This document shows positions 1 through 18,992 of a stretch of 54,037 nt of DNA, one piece after another. The translations under genes and the position numbers were made by a program. Location: contig CASFQZ010000028.1 in assembly GCA_949296825.1 (NCBI GenBank), forward strand, positions 1 through 54,037, written 5' to 3'. Below the pieces are notes generated by a model, which was not told where the DNA came from, ran no database searches, and worked only from the letters and a program-made list of their open reading frames with translations. Each line of letters opens with the position of its first letter. The first letter of the stretch is position 1. Source of the stretch: an uncultured Eubacteriales bacterium (GTDB taxonomy: Bacteria > Bacillota > Clostridia > Oscillospirales > Acutalibacteraceae).

Positions 1-3000
1 ATAATACTCAAGACCTGTTGTGGGATCGCCGCCGGTCTGCCAGGCGTTGGTCACGATCTTGCCCAGAAGCAGATACATCAGCTTACCGTTGGCGGTGTCA
101 TGCACAAAGCCGGTGTAGGTACCCACATCGGTGGTATAACCGCAGACCGAGCAGATCAGCTTATTGTTGGCTCTGTCAAGGTCATAGTCATGGACGCCTT
201 CCTCGGTGCAGGTGATCGCTTTGTTCATCGTGTAAGAATCAAGGATCACAGCCGTACCGTCCGCCTGCAGATCATAGGTCGTGACCGTAAAGGCGGTGTC
301 GGTGACATGGGCGGTCATGTAGGTCGCGTTGTAGGTACCACTGGTAAACGCATAATGATGCGCGGGGTTGAACACGATGTCGTAGCTCTTCTCGCCGGTG
401 GAACCGCAGATGAAGTAAACAGCGCCGTTCTCGCGGTCGATCTCGCCGCCGGTCATCGGCTCGGTTCTCGCATAGGAGTGGTCGTGACCGGAGAAGATAA
501 AGTCAATCTCCGCCGCATCCACCAGGTCGGAAATGACCTCGCGAAGGACATCACTGCCGCCGCTGGGATTGGTATAATAGGGCGCCTGGTGCAGGGAAAG
601 AACCTTCCAGGTCGCATCGGACGCTGCCGCATCGCTGATGATCCACTCCGCAGCCTTACGATAGCTGTCTACGCCGGCATAGTTGATGACTGCGACATAG
701 ACATTGTTGTATTCCACGCTGTAGCAAAGGGGAGCGGTATTGTTCTCGGTGCCGGGCAGGTCAAAGTACAGCGCAGAGTTTTGAGCGGTGTCATCGCCGT
801 AGTACTCGTGGTTGCCCAAAACATGGATGATGTCCTGCGAGCCAAGGAATGCATCGCTGAATACCGGCGCAATGCCCTGCCAGTGCGCATAGTTGCCGCC
901 GTTATCGATCGCGTCGCCGGTCTGGAGACCGAAGTCGAAGTCAATGCCGCTGTCGGCAAGCAAGCCGGAAATCAGGCTGGTGTTGGTGGTATCCGTTGCC
1001 TGGGTATCGCCGATGATGAAGAAATCGGTATCCTGATTGCCGCCGGAGGTGGAGAAGGTCTTCGCCTCGGTGGTCATCAAAGCGCCGTCACCGGCAAAGT
1101 ATACATAATCGGTATTGGGGGTCAGCCCGGTCAGCTCCACAGCGTTGATGCGGACCGCATAGTTGGTCGCTGTATTGCCGGAGCTTGCCATTTCGGAAAC
1201 CACGCTGCTGCCCTCGACGGTGATCAGTGCCGCTTCGCCCTGCGCCTCATAGTCCGCAGCAGCTGCATATTTAACAATCGCTTTTCCTGCGGCGGCGGTC
1301 GGAGAGCTCATCCAGGTGATGCTCTGGGTCGTGGCAGGATCTTCGGTCGCATTGAGCTTCACATAGGTCGGCATACCGTCTTCGCTGCCGCCGCCGGGGT
1401 AGCTCTGACCGTTGTAGATGAAGGAAAGCATTGCGCCCTGCTGCGCATAAATCGCATAGGCAGCCACTTCCTCGACAAACATTTCGGTGAAGACCTTGCC
1501 TTCGCTGTCGGTGGTGCCGACTTTTGTACCACCCGTGGTGAAGATGTCAACGCCGGCAGCCGGGTTACCCGCAGCATCGGTCACGTAGATGTTGCCACCG
1601 GCGGAGCCGACGATCATCGGGTCGGGAGTAATGGTAAAGGCGGAGGTGACCACCGTTTCAATGGTTCCGGTGAAGGAAGCGACGAATGTCTCCTCGGTGA
1701 CCGGATTGGTGTAAGTCAGCGCACCTTTATCGACACGATAGGTGACCGCCAGGTCTTCGGGGGTATTGCTGGCAACGGCAACAACGATTCTGGCGATGGC
1801 GCCGTCATCCAGCGTGGGATCCGCATCCGCTTTGCGCTCCACCGTAAAGGAAATCGGCGTTGCAGGAGCGGTCGAAGAAGCAGTCAATTCATAGTTGTCA
1901 GAGGGAATGATGGTATACTGATTCCAATAATCCGGGAAATTGGAGAACAGCGTCACTTCCACCTCGGCGCTTTCGATGGCAGCGGGATCGTCCGCCTGGA
2001 TTGCCATTGTATAATTGCCGCCAAGGACAGGCGCGGCATCCTCCGCCACAAAGGTGACGACCGGATCCTCGCGTTCACCTGCTACGGCGAAGGTGCGAGT
2101 CTCTGTGGTATTGTTGCCGAATTTATCGGAGACGGAAACGGTCAAACGATGGGAGCCGTTGGTCAGCACCGCGTCGTAGAAATAGATTTCGCTGTCGACT
2201 TCGTTGATGAAGCACTGCTCGGTGACGTCGACGCCGTCGATCAGCACATTGACCGCGTCAAAGTCGATGCCGGTGGCATATTTGCCGTCGAAATCGGCGA
2301 AGGTGGCGCGGAAGGTATTGACGTTGGAGGTCAGGACGGTTTCATTGTCGACGATCTCCACATCGTTGGCGGTACCATAGGTACCGATGGAGTTGATGAC
2401 GGGGCGATCCAGGTCATCGGTATTGGCGCCGTAGACCAGCTGGATATTATCGATATAGATTGTACCGGCGGTTGCAGCAGCGGAACCGGCACCAGGCTGG
2501 AAGGAAACCCAGAAGACACCGCAGCCCTGGTAGTAACCAAAGGGGGCATTCGCCGGACCAAGACCAGCACCGGAACCGGCATCTGTGAAATCCATTTCCA
2601 CATACTGCCAGCCGGACTGGGTGATATCGCCGACTTCCGCATAGGCAAGGTTAAAGCCGTTCACCGGGTCATCCGCCTGGTTGGCACAGTTCAGATACAG
2701 ATGGACGCCCTGCAAGCCCTCCGGCAGCCAGACCCAGCAGCCATAGCCGGTAGGCGAGCCCTCAAAGGCATAATCCGGATCGGTCATACGGACGTAGAAG
2801 TTCGCGTTACTCGAACCATTATAGGATTCAAAGTTATAGTCAAAACGAAGGGAGTGATCGCCGAAGCGGACCGGCGCGCCGTCTTCCCTGGAAACAATGG
2901 TCAGCGTACCATCATGCATATCATTCATAGCGGAGTTTGCCCACATACAAAGCGGGTAGCCCTGTTGACGGAATTCTTCATAGGTACCGTCCATATAATT

Positions 3001-4593
3001 GGGCATAACCAAGCTAGGAACATACGCCAAATCATTGTCCGGGTCGTCGTCCGCCAGACTGGCGTCGACTTCTTCCTGATCATCCGAATACTCGAAATCA
3101 TAGAGCACCGTCGGCATTGCGCCGATGATGGCACGGACCTGAACCGAAATCTCCGCATTGTTGACGTATGTCGCGGTGACATTGGCATTGACCGTTACGC
3201 CGTCAAAGGTGGTAAAGGTCAGTCCGTCCGCATTCCAGGTACCGGCGGTGGCGGAAACATCCGCACCCTCATCGTCCACCATGGTCCAGACAATATCGCC
3301 GGCTTTCATATGAACTTCGCGGTTCTGGTAATAGGCAACGATGCCGAAATCGGTGGTCTCTTCAAAACCAAGAGAAATTTCTGTGGCGGGGACATAGAAG
3401 GTATCCGGCTCCCGTACCTCAATGGAAACGGAGCCGCAGACCTTACCGCCGGAAAGATAATTGACCGTGACGGTACCAATCGTGCCGTTGGAGGTAAACA
3501 TACCCTCGGGCGTAATGGTTCCGAAAGAATCGTCGGCAAGCGCAAAGGCGCCGTCGGCGGGAAGCTCAACAGCCGCGCCGGAGGAATCCGCACCGGTGGC
3601 GGTGAACTGCACGGTGGAGCCGGGGGTATAGACCTCATTGTTGGGCTCCAGCGACGCGGTGGCAAATACGCCGTCCGGGGTCGCGGAGGAGGTCACCAGA
3701 AGGGCGGAGGATACCGCACGGGGGTTGCCGCTGTCGGAGGGGCTGTTTTTCACCGTTAAAGCATCCTCACCGGCACGCTTGGAAACGAAGGTGGCAGAGC
3801 CGCCGCCGTCCAGCTGTCCGCCGGAGACGCAGCCGAGGCTGATCAGCACATCGGCAATCTCGCCCCAGGTCATACCAATGGAGTACGGGTTCTGACGGCC
3901 GTCATTTTCCAGGATAACAACGGAGCCGTCCGCCTTGATACCGACCGCTACACGGGGCTGGGGGTCTACATTGTAGCTGCCCTTACCGCTGGAAACATTC
4001 TCACCGTTCCAGACGGAGATTTCCCACAGACCGATGGCTTCCTTAACGTCGTCATAGGGATCGTTCGCATGACGGATCACGGCGGAGCCGTCATTCAGGA
4101 TGGCGAAATAGGGTCTGCCGGCGGTCGGGTTGCTGCCGCCGTGCTGATTATAAAGCTGACCATCCATGATCAGCATACCGCTGGAGGCGCCGGTCTGCAT
4201 ATTGAAAATATCGCCGTTGACGCCGCCTACGACCTTTACGCCGCGCACTCTTTCGGCAGCGGCTGCCTGATCGGTTACGGTCTGAAGACCCAGGGAATTA
4301 CCGTTCTGATCTTTATAGCTGGCGATCAGAGACGCATTGTTGCCGACCTCGACAGTCATGGCATGGATATGGTTCTGATTCGAGCCGTTTTCGTTATTAA
4401 AAACCAGATGGGTCTCTTCGATACCCGGGGCGATCGGATAGTCGGTTTTGGAAACCAGCAAATTGCCCTCGGGAAGCGTGCTATTGTCCAGATCCACAGC
4501 CGCAAAGACGGACATCGGCAGAATGCCGAGGACCATAACGGCTGCCAAAAGTACCGCAAGGACTTTTCTTGTCCGCGTACCGGATCGTTTCAT
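1..4593 (-). CDS. Giant secreted phosphodiester glycosidase / metallophosphoesterase fusion (partial, C-terminus off the left edge)
   Basis: The frame is open for 1531 codons from the ATG at 4593 to base 1. A signal peptide is clear (basic start, hydrophobic core, SVFAA cleavage site near residue 31). Residues about 35-295 look like a NAGPA phosphodiester glycosidase, with GVNGDIFN near 124 and DGGGSATFV near 260. A Big-like domain follows (about 300-380), then a jelly-roll-like binding region (about 500-720). Residues about 1075-1170 match the Fn3-like N-domain of purple acid phosphatases. A metallophosphoesterase follows with GDTQ (about 1190), GNHEYY (about 1258) and GHDHS (about 1368). 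The last visible residues resemble a surface-binding repeat. It is probably secreted and surface attached, and may split sugar phosphodiesters and then remove the exposed phosphate. The domain calls are firm; the coupled activity is inference. Ribosome site AAAGGA precedes the ATG. Confidence 0.85.
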   Translation of the reverse strand, partial: MKRSGTRTRKVLAVLLAAVMVLGILPMSVFAAVDLDNSTLPEGNLLVSKTDYPIAPGIEETHLVFNNENGSNQNHIHAMTVEVGNNASLIASYKDQNGNSLGLQTVTDQAAAAERVRGVKVVGGVNGDIFNMQTGASSGMLIMDGQLYNQHGGSNPTAGRPYFAILNDGSAVIRHANDPYDDVKEAIGLWEISVWNGENVSSGKGSYNVDPQPRVAVGIKADGSVVILENDGRQNPYSIGMTWGEIADVLISLGCVSGGQLDGGGSATFVSKRAGEDALTVKNSPSDSGNPRAVSSALLVTSSATPDGVFATASLEPNNEVYTPGSTVQFTATGADSSGAAVELPADGAFALADDSFGTITPEGMFTSNGTIGTVTVNYLSGGKVCGSVSIEVREPDTFYVPATEISLGFEETTDFGIVAYYQNREVHMKAGDIVWTMVDDEGADVSATAGTWNADGLTFTTFDGVTVNANVTATYVNNAEISVQVRAIIGAMPTVLYDFEYSDDQEEVDASLADDDPDNDLAYVPSLVMPNYMDGTYEEFRQQGYPLCMWANSAMNDMHDGTLTIVSREDGAPVRFGDHSLRFDYNFESYNGSSNANFYVRMTDPDYAFEGSPTGYGCWVWLPEGLQGVHLYLNCANQADDPVNGFNLAYAEVGDITQSGWQYVEMDFTDAGSGAGLGPANAPFGYYQGCGVFWVSFQPGAGSAAATAGTIYIDNIQLVYGANTDDLDRPVINSIGTYGTANDVEIVDNETVLTSNVNTFRATFADFDGKYATGIDFDAVNVLIDGVDVTEQCFINEVDSEIYFYDAVLTNGSHRLTVSVSDKFGNNTTETRTFAVAGEREDPVVTFVAEDAAPVLGGNYTMAIQADDPAAIESAEVEVTLFSNFPDYWNQYTIIPSDNYELTASSTAPATPISFTVERKADADPTLDDGAIARIVVAVASNTPEDLAVTYRVDKGALTYTNPVTEETFVASFTGTIETVVTSAFTITPDPMIVGSAGGNIYVTDAAGNPAAGVDIFTTGGTKVGTTDSEGKVFTEMFVEEVAAYAIYAQQGAMLSFIYNGQSYPGGGSEDGMPTYVKLNATEDPATTQSITWMSSPTAAAGKAIVKYAAAADYEAQGEAALITVEGSSVVSEMASSGNTATNYAVRINAVELTGLTPNTDYVYFAGDGALMTTEAKTFSTSGGNQDTDFFIIGDTQATDTTNTSLISGLLADSGIDFDFGLQTGDAIDNGGNYAHWQGIAPVFSDAFLGSQDIIHVLGNHEYYGDDTAQNSALYFDLPGTENNTAPLCYSVEYNNVYVAVINYAGVDSYRKAAEWIISDAAASDATWKVLSLHQAPYYTNPSGGSDVLREVISDLVDAAEIDFIFSGHDHSYARTEPMTGGEIDRENGAVYFICGSTGEKSYDIVFNPAHHYAFTSGTYNATYMTAHVTDTAFTVTTYDLQADGTAVILDSYTMNKAITCTEEGVHDYDLDRANNKLICSVCGYTTDVGTYTGFVHDTANGKLMYLLLGKIVTNAWQTGGDPTTGLEYY

Positions 4594-4996: not shown

Positions 4997-5839
4997 CTAT
5001 TTTGATAGAAATTTACGGATTGCTTTCCCGTCCCGGGTCCCCAGCCGGTAGAGCCGGTCGAGATTTTCCGGGCTGCGCTTTAAGGTGTCAACCCCGCAGC
5101 AATCCTCCGGCGCGACGACCAGCGCCCTGCCCTGTTTTTGCAGCGACAGCACTTTTTCCAGACTTTCCGCATAGGTCTGGTGGCGGCGAAAGACCTCGTC
5201 GGCGACCTGCGGGTAAGAGGCCAACAGACGGTGGATTATCTTTTTCGCCCGTTCCATCCGGTGGTCTTGAAAGCCCACAGGACGAGTCAGGATCACCACA
5301 AGCCGGTCACAGCCCTCCGCCAGCAGATGGTCTACCGGCAGGGGGTCGGAAAGTCCGCCGTCAAAATACTCCACCCCGTCGATCACATAGGGCTTACAGA
5401 CCAAAGGAATGCAGCAGGAGGCTTTCAGCACATCGTAATGATCGGGAGAAATATCTTTTTTGGTGAAATAGCAAGGCGTACCGTCCGAAGCGCGGGTAGC
5501 GACCACGCAAAGCTCACCGGGGAACGCGAGCACCCGGCGGATTGCCAGCGGGTCGATGCTGACTGAGTCGGACAAATCGGAATAAATATAGTCCAAATCA
5601 ATATAGCTGCCCTTTTTCAACAGGTTCACCATGCTCATATACTGTTTGCGGAAGGCATATTCGTGATAAAAGCGGTAGGTTCTGCCCGGCTGCCCCGCCT
5701 GATAGGTGATCAGATTGGCGCTGCCCGCCGACACGCCGCAGCAATAATCGAACATCACGCCGTCCGCAAGGCAGCGGTCCAGCACTCCCGCGCCGTACAT
5801 ACCGCGCATTCCGCCGCCGACATCAATGACACCGACCAT
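4997..5839 (-). CDS. Patatin-like phospholipase
   Basis: A 280-aa patatin-family lipid acyl hydrolase. The oxyanion-hole glycines (GGGMRG, residues 8-13), the nucleophile elbow GVSAGS (Ser near 37) and the dyad Asp in FDGGLSDP (near residue 158) are all present, so it should be catalytically competent. There is no signal peptide, so action is expected in the cytoplasm or at the inner membrane face. It is the last gene of the operon, 14 nt after dnaE, and its stop is followed directly by a terminator. The substrate cannot be read from sequence; bacterial family members of this size cleave phospholipids or other acyl esters. Ribosome site AAGGGA precedes the ATG. Confidence 0.85.
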   Translation of the reverse strand: MVGVIDVGGGMRGMYGAGVLDRCLADGVMFDYCCGVSAGSANLITYQAGQPGRTYRFYHEYAFRKQYMSMVNLLKKGSYIDLDYIYSDLSDSVSIDPLAIRRVLAFPGELCVVATRASDGTPCYFTKKDISPDHYDVLKASCCIPLVCKPYVIDGVEYFDGGLSDPLPVDHLLAEGCDRLVVILTRPVGFQDHRMERAKKIIHRLLASYPQVADEVFRRHQTYAESLEKVLSLQKQGRALVVAPEDCCGVDTLKRSPENLDRLYRLGTRDGKAIRKFLSK

Positions 5840-5853
5840 ATTTTTCCCTTCTT

Positions 5854-8800
5854 TTATTGCAATACTACATTTTTATCGCCCAAAAGCTGCTTCAGGCTCG
5901 AAAGCAGCGGGGCGCTGACCCCGACGGTAACGCCGGTTTTCAGATCATATTTTTTGCTGTCATTAAAATAGAAATACACCGGCGTTGAACCGGAAAAAGC
6001 GGAGAGACGGCTCAAGGCCTGCTGCTTCGCGCCGTCGTTTTCGGAAGCAAAGCGCAAAAACAGCCCGTGGGCGCGTTTTTTGCCGCTGTCCGCGCTCTGA
6101 GGGGGTGGCGCGGTCGGAGCGGTCGGAGCAGGCGGCGCGGTCTGCGCCGGCGCGCCGGCGCCGATATAGGAAACCGGCGCATACTCGGGGGGCGGCGCCT
6201 GGGTGTTTTTTTGAAATCCATTCAGCGAGGGCGCAGGCTCGATGCTTTCCAGCAACAGCTTGGGCGCTTCGTCGTCACGAACCGAAAGGCGCGCCCGGAT
6301 CATTACGATGGCGTCCTCGGAAATATAAGGCGCGAACTGGGTATAGGCTTTTGGAAAAACGATCACTTCGATGGCGCCGTACATATCCTCCGCCTCCAAA
6401 AACGCCATGGTTGTATCGTTTTTGGTGATTTTTTTCTTGACGGAAGACAGAATCGCCAGCACCGTAACCTTTGCGCCGTCCTGATAGGAGGAGGGGTCCT
6501 GCGGGTCCGATTCCAGCAGGTGATCTACCCGGGCGCAGTGCAGTTTTTTTGCCATATCGCGGTATTCCGCCATTGGGTGACCGGAAATATACAGCCCCGT
6601 GGTCAGCTTTTCCAGCGCGAGCCTTTCCCGATCGGGCAGCTCGGGCACATCGGGAATCGGCGGCTCGGCGACTTCGGCAAAGGCGGAGCCGACATCAAAC
6701 AGTCCAACCTGACCGTCGATCTTATGCTTACGGTCATCGTCCATGGAGGCAATGATCGGATCCATGATTTGCAGCATCTGGCGGCGGTTGGTCCCCAAGC
6801 CGTCCAACGCGCCGCATTTAATGAAATGCTCCACCGAGCGGCGGTTGAACTCTTTGCCGTACACCCGACGGCAGAAGGTGAAAAAGGAGGTAAAGGGACC
6901 GTTCTTTTCGCGCTCGGCGATAATTGATTTGATAAACACGCCGCTGACGTTCTTAACCGCCAGCAATCCGAAGCGGACCTTGCCGTCCTCCACGATGAAA
7001 TTCTCAGCGCTGTGGTTGACGTGGGGCGGCAGAACCTCTACCCCCAGGTTGGCGCACTCGGAGATATAAGGCACCATCTTTTCGGTGTTATCCAACACAC
7101 TGGTCAGCATGGCAGCCATAAATTCGCAGGGATAGTGCCGCCGCAGATAGGCGGTCTGATAGGTCACGTAGGCGTAGGCGGCGGAGTGAGATTTGTTGAA
7201 TGCATAGGACGCGAAAGACGCCATATCGTCGAAAATTGCGTTCGCCGCCTCCTCGGAAATACCGCGCTTGATACAGCCGTCGCAGGGAGAACTGCCGTCG
7301 GAGCCGTCGGAGCCGTGTAAAAAGTATTTGCGCTGCTGCTCCAGCACGTCCGCCTGTTTTTTGGCGACGGCGCGGCGCACCATATCCGACGCGCCCAGGG
7401 AATAGCCGGCAAGATCGCGGAAAATCTGCATCACCTGCTCCTGATACACGATGGTGCCGCAGGTCACGTCCAGAATGGGCTTAAGCTCCGGGGTATGATA
7501 ATGAATTTTATCCGGATGGGCACGGTTTTCCAGATACGCCGGGATAAAGTCCATGGGACCGGGGCGATACAGCGCAATTACCGCGATGATATCTTCCAAA
7601 TTTTTTGGGCACATATTGATCATCAGGGAACGAATACCCGCCGATTCACACTGGAACACGCCATAGGTACCGCCCTCGGCAAGCATTTGGTAGGTTTCCG
7701 GATCATCGATGCCCACATCGGCGATACGAAAATCCGGCTCTCGACGGCGGATCATTTCTTCCGCGTCGTTAATCACCGTCAGGGTTCGCAGCCCCAGGAA
7801 GTCCATTTTCAGCAAGCCGAGCTTTTCGACCCAGCCCTTATAATACTGGGTTACAATCGAGTCGCCGCTGGTGAACAGGGGGCAATATTCCACCACCGGC
7901 AGGCGGCTGATCACCACGCCTGCCGCGTGCATACCGGTACTTTTTGGCATACCTTCGATTTTTTTGGAGGTATCAATCAGATTGCGCACCTGCTCGCTTT
8001 CGGCGTACATTTTTTTCAGATCCTGATTGGATTCCAGCGCCTTATCGATGGTCATGCCCAATTCCTGCGGGATCTCCTTGGCAACGGCATCCACCTCGGC
8101 GTAGCTCATGCCCAGCACCCGCCCGACGTCGCGGATGGCGCCCTTCGCCGCCATGGTGCCGAAGGTGGCAATCTGCGCCACATGATCCGCCCCATACCGG
8201 CGCTTGACATATTCAATGACCTCCTGCCGCCGGTTGTAACAGAAGTCGATATCAAAGTCGGGCATACTGACGCGCTCGGGGTTCAAAAAACGCTCAAACA
8301 GCAGATTAAAGCGCATGGGGTCGATGTCCGTAATACCGCAGCAATAGGCGGCGATGCTGCCCGCGCCGGAGCCTCTGCCGGGTCCCACCGGGATGCCGAC
8401 GGATTTGGCGTAATTGATATAATCCCAAACGATCAGGAAATAATCGATAAAGCCCATCGACTGAATGACGCCCAGCTCATAATCCAGCCGCTCTCTGTAT
8501 TCCTCGGGATAGTCCGCACCGTAGCGTTTGACCAGCCCGTCATAGCACATATTCTTAAAATATTCAAAATGATCCTGCCCGCCGGGCACGTCGAAATGCG
8601 GCAGGATTGTATTGCCGAATTCAAATTCCACCTGACAGCGCTCGGCGATTTTATTGGTATTTTCGATCGCCTCGGGCACCTCGGGAAACAGCGCCGCCAT
8701 CTCATCGCCGGTTTTCAGATAAAAATCGGGCGACGAAAAATCAAAGCCGGTATTTTCGTTAATGGTGTGTTTGGTCTGGATACAGATGAGGATCTTCTGC

Positions 8801-14186: not shown

Positions 14187-16751
14187 ATGCTGACCCATCG
14201 CTGGATCGAGGGCAAAGAGGATTATTCCGATGCGCTTTGGATTCGCAGAATTGTTTTTATGAAGGAACAAGGCTATTCCGAACAGATGGAAATCGTTCCG
14301 GAAGAAGATACCATTTCCCAGCATCTGGTGATTTATGACGACGGGAAGCCCGTTGCCTGCGGACGGCTGCTGCCGGACAAAAAGCCCGGCTCCCTGCACG
14401 CCGGACGCATTGCCGTCCTGAAAGAAAAACGAGGAACCGGGCTGGGCAGAACCGTTGTTGAGCTGCTGACAAAGAAAGCAAAAGAGCAAGGCGCCGAAGA
14501 AGTCACCATTGGCGCCCAGGAATATGCCGTCCCCTTCTACCGAAAATGCGGCTATATTCCCTGCTCGGTCGAATATATGGACGGGCATATCCCCCATGTG
14601 ATGATGGCGCGCACTTTTGCGCTGGAGGATTGCAGCTTCCTGAGTTTCCGCGACTTTCCCGGAGCCGTGCTTTTTCGCCGGGATTTCGCCCTGCCTACCG
14701 CCGCCAAAAAGGCGACGCTTCTTCTGCTGCCGCTGGGATTTTGCGAAGGTTATCTCAATGGCAGACGTATCAGCGAGGATTTATATGCGCCCGCCTGGAG
14801 CAATTATGTGCCGCAGGATCTCAGCCATATGAATTATCCGATCCACGATAAAATGTGTCATCGCGCCTACTATCTGGAATACGATGTCACATCCTTTGTA
14901 CAGGAAGGAAAAAACGCCTTGGCGCTGCACATCGGCGACGGCTGGTACGGTCAGTGGGAGACCCGCAATGAGGGCGTAAAGCGCTATGGTGAAAAAAAGC
15001 TTTGCTACCGTCTGAGCATCGAAGGAGAAGACGGTCAACATTATGAATTTTCCTCTTCCGACGGGGGGAAATATCGCGGCAGCTTTATCAAAAAGACCAG
15101 TATGTATTTCGGCGAACGGCAGGACCTGCGCGATTATGCTCGTGCAGACCTGACCAACGAGCCGGTCGGCGCAGTGTGGCTTGACGCCGCGCCAGCTTCT
15201 GCGCCTGATTCGCTTCTTGTCAAGCAGACCTGTCCATCGGATCGGGTGCTGCAGACGATCCGCAATCCTAAAATCATCTATACCTTCGGCGACACCACGA
15301 TCTATGATATCGGCGAAAATCTCGCCGGCTTCGCTGTACTGAAGTTTCCGAACCGCAGCGGAGCGAACCGGCGCATTCTGGTGCGCTATGCGGAGAATCT
15401 GAACGAAGACGGCTCGCTGAACTTTCATTCCACCGGCGGCAGAAATCGAATTTCGATGGATGAATTTTGCAGCGGAGACGACAACGATCTTTTGCTTTAC
15501 CCCCGATTTCTCTGGCACGCCGGCCGCTATATTGAGGTGCGGGGCGAACACGAATTTGTCGCCTTCTGTCTTGCTGCCTCCGATGTCAGGCAGACCGCCG
15601 AATTCTCCTGCGCCGACCCGGTACTGAACTGGCTGTTTGGCGCGTATGTGCGCACCCAGCAGAGCAATATCCACTGCTGCGTTCCCTCCGACTGTCCCCA
15701 TCGTGAGCGGCTGGGCTATACCGGCGACGGTCAATTGACCAGCCGGGCGGCGCTGACGGTATTTGACGCCAAGGAAATGTATCGCAAATGGATTCGCGAT
15801 ATCGCTGACAGTCAGGACATCAAAGGCGGACACGTCCAGCATACCGCCCCCTTTTACGGCGGCGGGGGCGGTCCCGGCGGTTGGGGCTGCGCAATGGTCG
15901 CTATGCCCTGGAATTTTTATGAATTTACCGGTGATCTTTCAATTTTAGAGGATTATTATTGTCATATGACAAAATACCTGGACTATATGCACACCCGCTG
16001 TGAGAATCATCTGGTGGTACGGGAGGAGCCGGAGGGCTGGTGTCTCGGCGACTGGTGTCCGCCTTACGGCAAACCGCAAATTCCGGAACCCTTTGTCAAT
16101 ACCTATTTCTATATCCGTTCCCTGCGCCAGGTCCAAAAGGCGGCGCAGCTTCTGGGCAAAGAGGAGGACATTCCCGTATTTCTCCGGGAGGAGGAAGCCT
16201 GTCTGCGGGCAATAAAAGAGCATTATCTTGATCCGAACACCGGTTCCTTCTGCGGCGGCGTAGAGGGGGCGGATGCCTTTGCTATGGATCTTGGTCTGGG
16301 CGACGAACGCACCGAAAAAAATCTGGTTCAAAAATATCAGGCGCTCAGCATGTACGACACCGGTATTTTCGGCACGGATCTGGTGACCAAGGTACTATTT
16401 GACCGAGGACATGGTGAAACAGCACTGGCTCTTCTGACCAGCCGCAAGGAGGTCTCCTTCGGTCATATGATGGACAGCGGCGCAACTACCCTATGGGAAT
16501 ACTGGTTCAATGACCATTCCTCCAGTCATCCGATGTTTGGCGCAGTGGCTGAATATCTGTTCCGTGATATTCTCGGTATTCGCCAGAGGGAAGGCAGCGC
16601 CGGTTTCCGCGAATGGGAAATCAAGCCCGCTTTTCTGCCATCCCTCGACTGGGCAAGGGGAAAAATGCAAATTCCCGACGGCGTGCTGGAAGTCGAAGTG
16701 GAACACGGCAAATTAAAAAAATGTACGCTCAATGGAAAGGAGATTTCATGA
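14187..16751 (+). CDS. GNAT acetyltransferase - GH78 alpha-L-rhamnosidase fusion
   Basis: One uninterrupted 854-aa frame encodes two enzymes. Residues 1-144 are a YjcF/ElaA-like GNAT domain with the acetyl-CoA motif KRGTGLGRTV (81-90), AVPFYRKCGY and IPHVMMAR. From about residue 148 it becomes a GH78 alpha-L-rhamnosidase: an N-terminal beta domain with WYGQWE, then the (alpha/alpha)6 barrel with DCPHRERLGYTGD near residue 500, matching the catalytic acid region of BsRhaB, and TTLWEYW near 770 containing the catalytic-base Glu. No signal peptide is present, so both act in the cytoplasm. Its TGA overlaps the ATG of the next acyltransferase. A frameshift joining neighbouring genes looks unlikely because the frame and spacing are continuous. 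Ribosome site GAGGTGA precedes the ATG. Confidence 0.87.
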   Translation: MLTHRWIEGKEDYSDALWIRRIVFMKEQGYSEQMEIVPEEDTISQHLVIYDDGKPVACGRLLPDKKPGSLHAGRIAVLKEKRGTGLGRTVVELLTKKAKEQGAEEVTIGAQEYAVPFYRKCGYIPCSVEYMDGHIPHVMMARTFALEDCSFLSFRDFPGAVLFRRDFALPTAAKKATLLLLPLGFCEGYLNGRRISEDLYAPAWSNYVPQDLSHMNYPIHDKMCHRAYYLEYDVTSFVQEGKNALALHIGDGWYGQWETRNEGVKRYGEKKLCYRLSIEGEDGQHYEFSSSDGGKYRGSFIKKTSMYFGERQDLRDYARADLTNEPVGAVWLDAAPASAPDSLLVKQTCPSDRVLQTIRNPKIIYTFGDTTIYDIGENLAGFAVLKFPNRSGANRRILVRYAENLNEDGSLNFHSTGGRNRISMDEFCSGDDNDLLLYPRFLWHAGRYIEVRGEHEFVAFCLAASDVRQTAEFSCADPVLNWLFGAYVRTQQSNIHCCVPSDCPHRERLGYTGDGQLTSRAALTVFDAKEMYRKWIRDIADSQDIKGGHVQHTAPFYGGGGGPGGWGCAMVAMPWNFYEFTGDLSILEDYYCHMTKYLDYMHTRCENHLVVREEPEGWCLGDWCPPYGKPQIPEPFVNTYFYIRSLRQVQKAAQLLGKEEDIPVFLREEEACLRAIKEHYLDPNTGSFCGGVEGADAFAMDLGLGDERTEKNLVQKYQALSMYDTGIFGTDLVTKVLFDRGHGETALALLTSRKEVSFGHMMDSGATTLWEYWFNDHSSSHPMFGAVAEYLFRDILGIRQREGSAGFREWEIKPAFLPSLDWARGKMQIPDGVLEVEVEHGKLKKCTLNGKEIS

Positions 16752-17690: not shown

Positions 17691-17954
17691 TTACGCGTTG
17701 GACTTGTTCAGCTTAACGGCAAGCGCCGCTTTTTTGCGGGCAGCGTTGTTCTTGTGCAGCAGCCCCTTCGCAGCAGCCTGGTCGATCTTTTTCTGCGCAA
17801 GCTTGACAAGCTCCGCTTTATCCGCAGCGCCGGACTCGATCGCAAGGTTCGCCTTTTTGATCGCGGTCTTCAGCGCAGTATTCGCCGATTTATTTCGCGC
17901 GGCTTTGGTCGCGTTCACGCGAACGCGCTTCTTCGCGGACTTAATGTTAGGCAT
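17691..17954 (-). CDS. rpsT: 30S ribosomal protein S20
   Basis: An 87-aa, very basic, alanine-rich helical protein that binds 16S rRNA in the small subunit. The family start MPNIKSAKKR and the motifs NKSANTALKTAIKKA and KKIDQAAAKGLLHKNNAARKKA are all present. The ATG at 17954 is chosen because it follows a strong ribosome site (AAAGGAGGTGG) and gives the canonical N-terminus. Convention in Firmicutes places rpsT next to gpr, as here, where the two genes are divergent. Confidence 0.97.
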   Translation of the reverse strand: MPNIKSAKKRVRVNATKAARNKSANTALKTAIKKANLAIESGAADKAELVKLAQKKIDQAAAKGLLHKNNAARKKAALAVKLNKSNA

Positions 17955-17986
17955 ATCGCCACCTCCTTTACACATGCACACGAAGT

Positions 17987-18015
17987 ATCATACCATCTTT
18001 TCCGCCCAATTGCAA
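17987..18015 (-). promoter_or_regulatory. Sigma-A promoter for rpsT
   Basis: Minus strand -35 TTGCAA (18010-18015), 17-bp spacer, -10 TATGAT (17987-17992). Confidence 0.75.
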
Positions 18016-18055
18016 GAATTTTTTTCAATTTCTTGAGAAAGGCGCGGAAAATTTC

Positions 18056-18084
18056 ACATATCTTTTTGTTTTTAGGACAAACTA
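18056..18084 (+). promoter_or_regulatory. Candidate forespore (sigma-F/sigma-G) promoter for gpr
   Basis: An ACATA box (18056-18060) lies 14 bp before GGACAAACTA (18075-18084), which fits the sigma-F/G pattern of an AT-rich -35 and a -10 ending in A-CTA with a preceding GG. No good sigma-A promoter is visible for gpr, which is forespore-expressed in Bacillus. The match is imperfect. Confidence 0.45.
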
Positions 18085-18116
18085 CCGGTGGAAAACCTAT
18101 GCGGGAGGTTATATTC

Positions 18117-18992
18117 ATGTTTTTCGGAACCGATCTTGCCATGGAACGCCGGCGCATTGCTGGCGAAATGGATGGAATCTTTCATCGAGAATATGCGGTC
18201 GGGGACGCATCCGTCAGCGAAATCCGCATCGAAAGCGACGAGGCGGCGGAAAAGCTGGGCAAATCCCGCGGCAGTTTTTTGACCGTCAGCGTCCCCGATA
18301 TGACCGAGGATATTGAGGTTTTCGAGGGCAGGAGCCGGGCGGCGGCAGATTGTCTGCTATCTCTGCTGCCAAAAAAGGGCAGTGTAATGGTGGCGGGGCT
18401 TGGCAATGAGGAAATTACCTCCGACGCGCTGGGTCCCAAATGCATCGCCCGCATCTTTGCAACCGGTCATATTCCCAAAGAGCAGGCGCGGCAGCTGGGT
18501 CTTGCCGGCCTGCGAACCGTTTATGCCGTTGCACCGGGCGTTGCCGGGCAGACCGGCATTGAAGGAGCGCAGTTTCTCAAAAGCCTTTGCAAAACCCTTT
18601 CGGTATCGGCGCTCATTGCGGTGGACGCGCTGGCGGCGCGGGATATGGCGCGGCTGGGCAATACCGTTCAGATCACCGACACCGGCATTTCTCCCGGCTC
18701 CGGCGTGGGCAATCCGCGAAAAGAATACACCCGGGAAAGCATCGGTGTGCCGGTTATCGCCGTCGGTGTGCCGACGGTTATCCACATCCTGCACGCGGCG
18801 GCAGGCATTTTTGCGCAGGAAATTACCGAAGAAAGCGAAATCCGCGCTAAAAACTACCGCGAAGCCGTCGTTACCGTGCGCGACGCGGACGCGTTGATCC
18901 GCCACGCGGCAAATCTAACCGCGATGGCAATCAATCTGGCGCTGCACCCGTCCCTTTCCGCCGCCGAGCTTTCCCATCTGACCGCGAGGTGA
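18117..18992 (+). CDS. gpr: GPR germination endopeptidase (spore protease)
   Basis: A 291-aa A25-family protease that degrades small acid-soluble spore proteins at germination; in Bacillus it is made in the forespore as a zymogen. Family motifs include GLGNEEITSDALGPK, the VAPGVAGQTGIE region, DALAARD and DTGISPGSGVGN. The ATG at 18117 follows ribosome site GGGAGG at a good distance; an in-frame ATG at 18099 lies upstream of that site. It is shorter than the Bacillus enzyme (about 370 aa), as is usual in Clostridia. Its presence implies the organism sporulates or recently did. A small membrane protein gene follows after 3 nt. Confidence 0.95.
   Translation: MFFGTDLAMERRRIAGEMDGIFHREYAVGDASVSEIRIESDEAAEKLGKSRGSFLTVSVPDMTEDIEVFEGRSRAAADCLLSLLPKKGSVMVAGLGNEEITSDALGPKCIARIFATGHIPKEQARQLGLAGLRTVYAVAPGVAGQTGIEGAQFLKSLCKTLSVSALIAVDALAARDMARLGNTVQITDTGISPGSGVGNPRKEYTRESIGVPVIAVGVPTVIHILHAAAGIFAQEITEESEIRAKNYREAVVTVRDADALIRHAANLTAMAINLALHPSLSAAELSHLTAR

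Follow-up and report, generated by a model that had tools for sequence, protein, structure and literature searches.

Locus and domain organization

The window, that is, the whole stretch of 54,037 nucleotides analyzed here, corresponds to the complete contig C28; the draft genome to which it belongs comprises 109 contigs totaling 2.1 Mb and is 92% complete. Its beginning is occupied by a minus-strand gene (1..4593) that starts with the ATG at position 4593, with AAGGAAAGG upstream, and encodes 1,531 visible residues. Because the window is all of C28 and the frame is open at base 1, with no stop codon ahead of it, the C-terminus of the protein lies past the contig end and is missing. A plus-strand open reading frame (ORF) in the same region (1-3759; 1,252 residues) was considered as the gene and rejected as a shadow of the coding strand, given that the homology is on the minus strand. 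Pfam searches and the minus-strand ORF confirm the original prediction that a single polypeptide with a signal-like start combines a NAGPA domain and a phosphoesterase domain.

Residues 1-31 (4501..4593) resemble a signal peptide, with a basic start, a hydrophobic core, and the motif SVFA/A, and, as judged by eye, the protein is probably secreted; it is also likely to be bound to the cell wall. The NAGPA domain spans residues 46-311 (3661..4458; Pfam core, residues 120-301, 3691-4236) and matches PF09992 with an E value of 3e-30 and 106 bits against a cut-off of 25. Toward the other end of the protein, a Pur_ac_phosph_N domain of the FN3 type (residues 1075-1182; 1048..1371; 38.4 bits against a cut-off of 30) is placed before the catalytic metallophosphoesterase domain (residues 1185-1462; 208..1041), the core of which (residues 1191-1374; 472-1023) matches Metallophos (PF00149) with 42.4 bits against a cut-off of 21.5. 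Thus, the profile check proposed for both domains returned all three models above their Pfam cut-offs. No third enzyme domain was named by Pfam in the window protein, and an NCBIfam search with this protein gave no matching model.

The region between the two enzymatic domains consists of several spacers. Residues 318-412 (3358..3642) form a putative Ig-like domain according to a profile built from the fusion set described below, with no Pfam model above the cut-off in the window protein; residues 519-738 (2380..3039) are tentatively assigned a jelly-roll-like fold from weak matches to Lyase_N, CE2_N, and galactose-binding models, each in one or two members of the set; residues 744-840 (2074..2364) correspond to an Ig-like domain (Big_13 in Pfam) matched in 20 of the 23 members (E up to 1), with the window protein itself below the cut-off; and in the stretch 842-1061 (1411..2070), some members give weak matches to cohesin, Big_1, and CarboxypepD_reg models. 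The metallophosphoesterase domain is followed by a Cys-containing link (C..CG) and what is likely the start of a wall-binding region (residues 1464-1531; 1..204), cut by the contig end; in the relative L043, the matching region leads into choline-binding repeats.

A paralogous fusion gene on contig C55 of the same genome (L008) is likewise cut at the contig end. The first 141 bases of C28 and C55 are identical, with 98% identity over 240 bases (positions 1-240 in both); the DNA of the NAGPA region is 81% identical (window 3404-4503 versus L008 3263-4362), and residues 563-1531 of the window protein are 44% identical overall to the paralog. We interpret the two ends as places where the assembly broke within a repeat common to two mosaic paralogous genes, and the mosaicism suggests recombination between the copies. 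No third contig carrying on the shared C-terminal stretch was found in this genome. In two genomes of the genus, a phosphoesterase-free NAGPA protein is encoded directly upstream of the fusion gene (L008:4507-6666 and L042:9819-11999), the latter with choline-binding repeats detected by Pfam. A germination-protease gene at 17754-18992 of the window suggests that the host is a spore-former.

Distribution and architecture of the fusion proteins

A search for other proteins with this architecture, which the original prediction had called for, recovered the same-genome paralog and 21 more proteins with the same order of enzymes, for a total of at least 23 fusion genes in 20 genomes. The fusion gene was found in at least 12 of 300 genomes of the family (confirmed in G170), at least 6 of 295 genomes drawn from the order (confirmed in G461), and at least 4 of 398 genomes of the phylum, the own genome being counted in the latter two samples; all these counts are lower bounds, with mostly two candidates scored per genome. 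The order in all 23 is NAGPA, Ig-like, jelly-roll-like, Ig-like, cohesin-like, FN3, and phosphoesterase, with the first Ig-like and the cohesin-like spacers falling under the threshold in some divergent members. A chance join or an assembly chimera of the two domains is ruled out by the shared enzyme order of the 23 genes.

Complete relatives span 1,369-2,837 residues. One relative, encoded on an uncultured Eubacteriales contig (L041), is 80% identical to the window protein in the best segment, from which we assume that the host belongs to Bacillota. In six of the seven relatives scanned with Pfam, C-terminal domains of the choline-binding, dockerin, FIVAR, or SLH types were detected: choline-binding repeats in L043, a dockerin in L047, FIVAR and Big_2 in L052, and SLH domains in L094, L095, and L096; the remaining protein, that of L042, is truncated by a contig end. 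Separately, three NAGPA proteins (L061, L104, and L105) carry a conserved N-terminal domain ahead of NAGPA, within the first ~370 residues, which could be the prok-TelC domain described in eLife in 2025 (PMC12419801).

Conservation of the catalytic residues

The best solved relatives of the first domain, by sequence, are 3ohg (DUF2233), 6ozd, and the mammalian NAGPA. The conserved residues of the window domain are N126, D128, D262, G263, G265, S266, and R292, all of which are present in 23 of 23 fusions except for N126, found in 22. The mammalian uncovering enzyme (6pku) aligns through the LDGGGS, NG, R-x-A-x-G, and DG motifs but has Gly in place of the invariant D128, which is kept in 3ohg. 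Two further positions vary: R214 is replaced in L044, L046, L052, and L096, and D231 is changed in L094, L095 (to N), and L096, so that the glycosidase function may be altered in a few fusions. The window protein keeps all compared NAGPA residues, including R214 and D231.

For the second domain, the best solved relatives by sequence are plant-type purple acid phosphatases (PAPs). The corresponding residues of the window protein include D1196, Q1198, D1227, N1261, H1335, H1370, and H1372. D1196, Q1198, D1227, N1261, H1262, H1335, and H1372 are identical in all 23 fusions, and H1370 is present in 22, with L095 having Asp at this position (GDDH). Accordingly, the calcineurin-like motifs D, GD, GNH[ED], H, and GHxH are complete in 22 of 23 proteins, including that of the window; loss of the metal ligands, named beforehand as grounds for refutation, is not seen, and the ligands of the window protein are intact.

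PAPs coordinate their metals through seven ligands, one of which is the Tyr of the GDxxY motif. The plant enzymes 1xzw and 6gja align with the fusion proteins over the catalytic domain and share GNHE and GHxHxYxR, whereas the fusions lack the Tyr ligand and have D-x-Q in motif I. At the position of this Tyr (1230), 21 of the 23 fusion proteins have Asp, and 2 have Glu. The absence of the ligand throughout implies that the catalytic domain should not be filed as a PAP and that monoesterase activity does not follow from the family name. Hence, the designation "purple-acid-phosphatase domain" in the original prediction fits the FN3 domain and is loose for the catalytic one.

Relationship to known systems

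The combination of the two domains, which the original prediction did not know as a characterized enzyme, has a precedent in print. Secreted calcineurin-like phosphoesterases related to ShfP may be fused to NAGPA (Updegrove et al., Sci Adv 2024; PMC11488536, PMC11188070), and the fusion partners in the wider ShfP radiation include NAGPA, cell-wall-binding domains, and FN3 domains of the Pur_ac_phosph_N type (PMC11488536, PMC11188070). The NAGPA-fused relatives are mentioned briefly there, so the architecture is in print, without characterization in the text examined. By description, the window protein has the features of the ShfP-like family, namely, adhesion domains, FN3/PAP-N combined with a calcineurin-like domain, and, judging by eye, secretion. 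ShfP (YvnB) itself is similarly secreted and Ig-rich, with a calcineurin-like domain, but differs in that it has an LTD and, in the text consulted, is not described as carrying NAGPA. Disruption of the phosphoesterase residues of Bacillus subtilis ShfP lowers extracellular glycerol to the level of the deletion (PMC11188070). A second precedent, in the consulted text of PMC12419801, is provided by large wall-binding proteins that combine NAGPA with prok-TelC and are read as conflict systems. These proteins resemble the fusions in that NAGPA is joined to a second enzyme in a large, Ig-rich, wall-binding protein of spore-forming Bacillota, but the second enzyme is a lipocone (TelC) rather than a metallophosphoesterase.

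The ShfP and PhoD precedents, together with the Asp or Glu that replaces the PAP Tyr in all 23 fusions, would fit parallel rather than sequential action of the two domains, with a PhoD/GpdQ-like phosphodiesterase cutting the glycerol-phosphate or polyol-phosphate backbone and NAGPA trimming sugar-1-phosphate links of the same wall or capsule polymer, for phosphate and carbon recovery or for wall turnover. Also consistent with this scheme are a glycerophosphodiester phosphodiesterase (GDPD) gene directly downstream of one fusion (L049:5681-6403) and a PhoD_N match to L094 that falls below its cut-off. Against it, the GDPD gene is a single such neighbor among the 10 of 103 neighboring ORFs scanned, and a match to a CDP-glycerol-type transferase is missing from 12 of the 20 fusion genomes. 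Parallel action is possible, if on the unlikely side.

Evolution of the pairing

Across the fusion set of 23, pairwise identity distances of the NAGPA domains correlate with those of the phosphoesterase domains (r 0.85; 0 of 2,000 permutations), indicating that the two domains were inherited together, a result that speaks to joint inheritance and not to function. In the phosphoesterase tree (43 domains), 19 of the 23 fusions form one clade with L074 (100/100 support), and the remaining four fall outside it. In the NAGPA tree (49 domains), the presence of the phosphoesterase requires 5 label changes, and fusions lie on either side of the midpoint root, so a simple recent addition of the phosphoesterase was rejected; with 5 changes and a root placed for drawing only, gain and loss are not distinguishable. 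In this tree, 26 of the 49 rows lack the phosphoesterase, a proportion that is not a rate because the rows were picked by similarity; among these 26, five have sequences that end early (L053, L068, L103, L107, and L110), L107 stopping ahead of the expected phosphoesterase place. A long NAGPA frame from the control sample (G076:C32) was also found to lack the phosphoesterase. Judging by the distance correlation and the two trees, the pairing is hence old, often kept, yet dispensable.

This dispensability could be taken to mean that the fusion is a modular surface protein in which shuffled domains act separately, without cooperation. The many relatives devoid of the phosphoesterase module fit such a view, as does the locus L074/L117, where the fusion backbone lacks NAGPA and two frames (5806-8322 and 8273-9283 in L117) each encode part of the phosphoesterase; this split either is genuine or stems from an assembly error. 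A check of 11 kb around L074 revealed no NAGPA frame. The constant order and the joint divergence of the two domains over 23 genes are at odds with independent action, making it highly improbable.

Genomic neighborhoods

GH2 and rhamnosidase genes are located 6.5 to 18 kb upstream of the window fusion; one ORF in the window (14187-16751) contains a GNAT acetyltransferase stretch before an alpha-L-rhamnosidase, which is either an unusual join or a start called too long. The glycoside hydrolase genes, the dockerin of L047, the mosaic paralogs in the window's genome, and the NAGPA and prok-TelC conflict systems of spore-forming Bacillota (PMC12419801, as consulted in part) would be compatible with a foraging or conflict exoenzyme that takes phosphate-linked sugars off foreign polymers, such as yeast phosphomannan or the capsules of other bacteria. 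However, choline-binding and SLH tails would attach the enzyme to the surface of its own producer; and patatin, dnaE, and aldolase genes separate the fusion from the glycoside hydrolases. The scan of the relatives' neighbors covered 10 of 103 ORFs. A literature search on phosphomannan use by gut bacteria found only work on vaccine glycoconjugates. We consider this explanation quite unlikely.

Among the neighboring ORFs scanned, which were chosen by a secreted-looking start or by interest, genes for CotH-family kinases (PF08757), with starts resembling signal peptides, adjoin the fusion in L043, L045, L046, L050 (two adjoining genes), and L051, and another is located three ORFs from the fusion in L047. 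In addition, an ORF of G328 (L095:1186-9696; G328:C3:139185-147695) encodes a single protein of 2,837 residues that combines NAGPA, FN3, phosphoesterase, CotH (residues 2087-2462, in frame), and SLH domains, with two catalytic motifs altered. When the 20 fusion genomes were searched in full, 12 of them yielded a total of 26 CotH genes, counting the in-frame one of G328, and the other 8 gave no match. For 7 of the 23 fusion genes, CotH is either part of the gene or at most 5 kb away, versus 0.21 expected (Poisson 3e-9, with relatedness ignored), and these seven are spread over 4 genera. No CotH gene was found nearby, on the available sequence, for the remaining 16 fusions, including both in the window's genome, for which the contig ends leave no downstream sequence to search. 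In a control sample of 130 genomes of the family, 3 of 8 fusions had a CotH match no more than 5 kb away, versus 1 of 67 other NAGPA genes (Fisher 0.003).

The kinases neighboring the fusions apparently belong to two CotH subfamilies. In g4, they are encoded upstream of the fusion and are 54% identical to each other; they share 38-39% identity (above 450 bits) with L115, a CotH protein of G080 whose gene does not adjoin a fusion, and are more distant from the other fusion-neighbor CotH proteins (29-38%, at most 251 bits). A downstream position of the kinase gene relative to the fusion is seen in g80 and g1. Two of the fusion-neighbor kinase genes carry dockerins. Open-licence papers naming CotH together with NAGPA were not found, nor was CotH with these enzymes in the wider literature among the matches listed; the adjacency to, or fusion with, NAGPA-phosphoesterase genes is therefore new as far as our searches show.

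The CotH link hints at a surface module for writing and erasing phosphate. Under this scenario, a secreted CotH-family kinase would phosphorylate a surface glycan or protein, and the fusion enzyme would strip sugar caps and then the phosphate, erasing the extracellular marks. Such a system would parallel, in bacteria, the mannose-6-phosphate cycle of capping, uncovering, and dephosphorylation. The G328 protein, which has all three domains together, counts toward this scenario despite its two altered motifs. We regard this scenario as unlikely for now, and it is best viewed as a possible refinement of the sequential model that follows.

Proposed function and implications

NAGPA enzymes hydrolyze sugar-1-phosphodiesters at the sugar-oxygen bond; a phosphatase could then act on the phosphomonoester left behind. 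The reading that we favor, with a probability of about one half, is that the fusion protein is a secreted, wall-attached bifunctional enzyme that acts sequentially on phosphate-linked surface glycans. Its C-terminal region, known from the relatives, would anchor the enzyme on the wall, and the spacer domains would provide reach and, perhaps, contact with the glycan. NAGPA would hydrolyze the sugar-O bond of a sugar-1-phosphodiester, yielding a phosphomonoester, and the ShfP-like metallophosphoesterase would then attack phosphoester bonds in this polymer, the newly formed monoester probably among them. In some lineages, a neighboring secreted CotH kinase may place the substrate phosphate.

The sequences themselves establish the domains, the intact catalytic motifs, the wall- or scaffold-binding tails of the relatives, and the co-inheritance of the two enzymes, and the glycerol result for ShfP adds to the case for the sequential model; secretion, the substrate, and the order of steps belong to the interpretation, and the phosphoesterase may take monoesters, diesters, or both. 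The two-step order is plausible rather than compelling because the absence of the PAP Tyr would also suit a phosphodiesterase and because NAGPA proteins with a similar backbone exist without the phosphoesterase. CDP-glycerol-type transferases were found in 8 of the 20 fusion genomes and LicD in 7, so no single known phosphopolymer explains all fusions; the window's genome is in both groups, making such phosphopolymers possible substrates in this organism. The Stealth profile (PF11380) had no match in any genome searched, the controls included, and is therefore uninformative.

The NAGPA family includes the human uncovering enzyme, and, to our knowledge, the natural substrates of the bacterial members are poorly known. 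A lineage whose NAGPA domains are joined to a phosphoesterase, and in some cases also to a secreted kinase, suggests a substrate on which phosphate can be both added and removed extracellularly. The question of the substrate thereby becomes testable with a single purified protein, and the fusion enzyme may yield a tool to trim phosphodiester-capped glycans.
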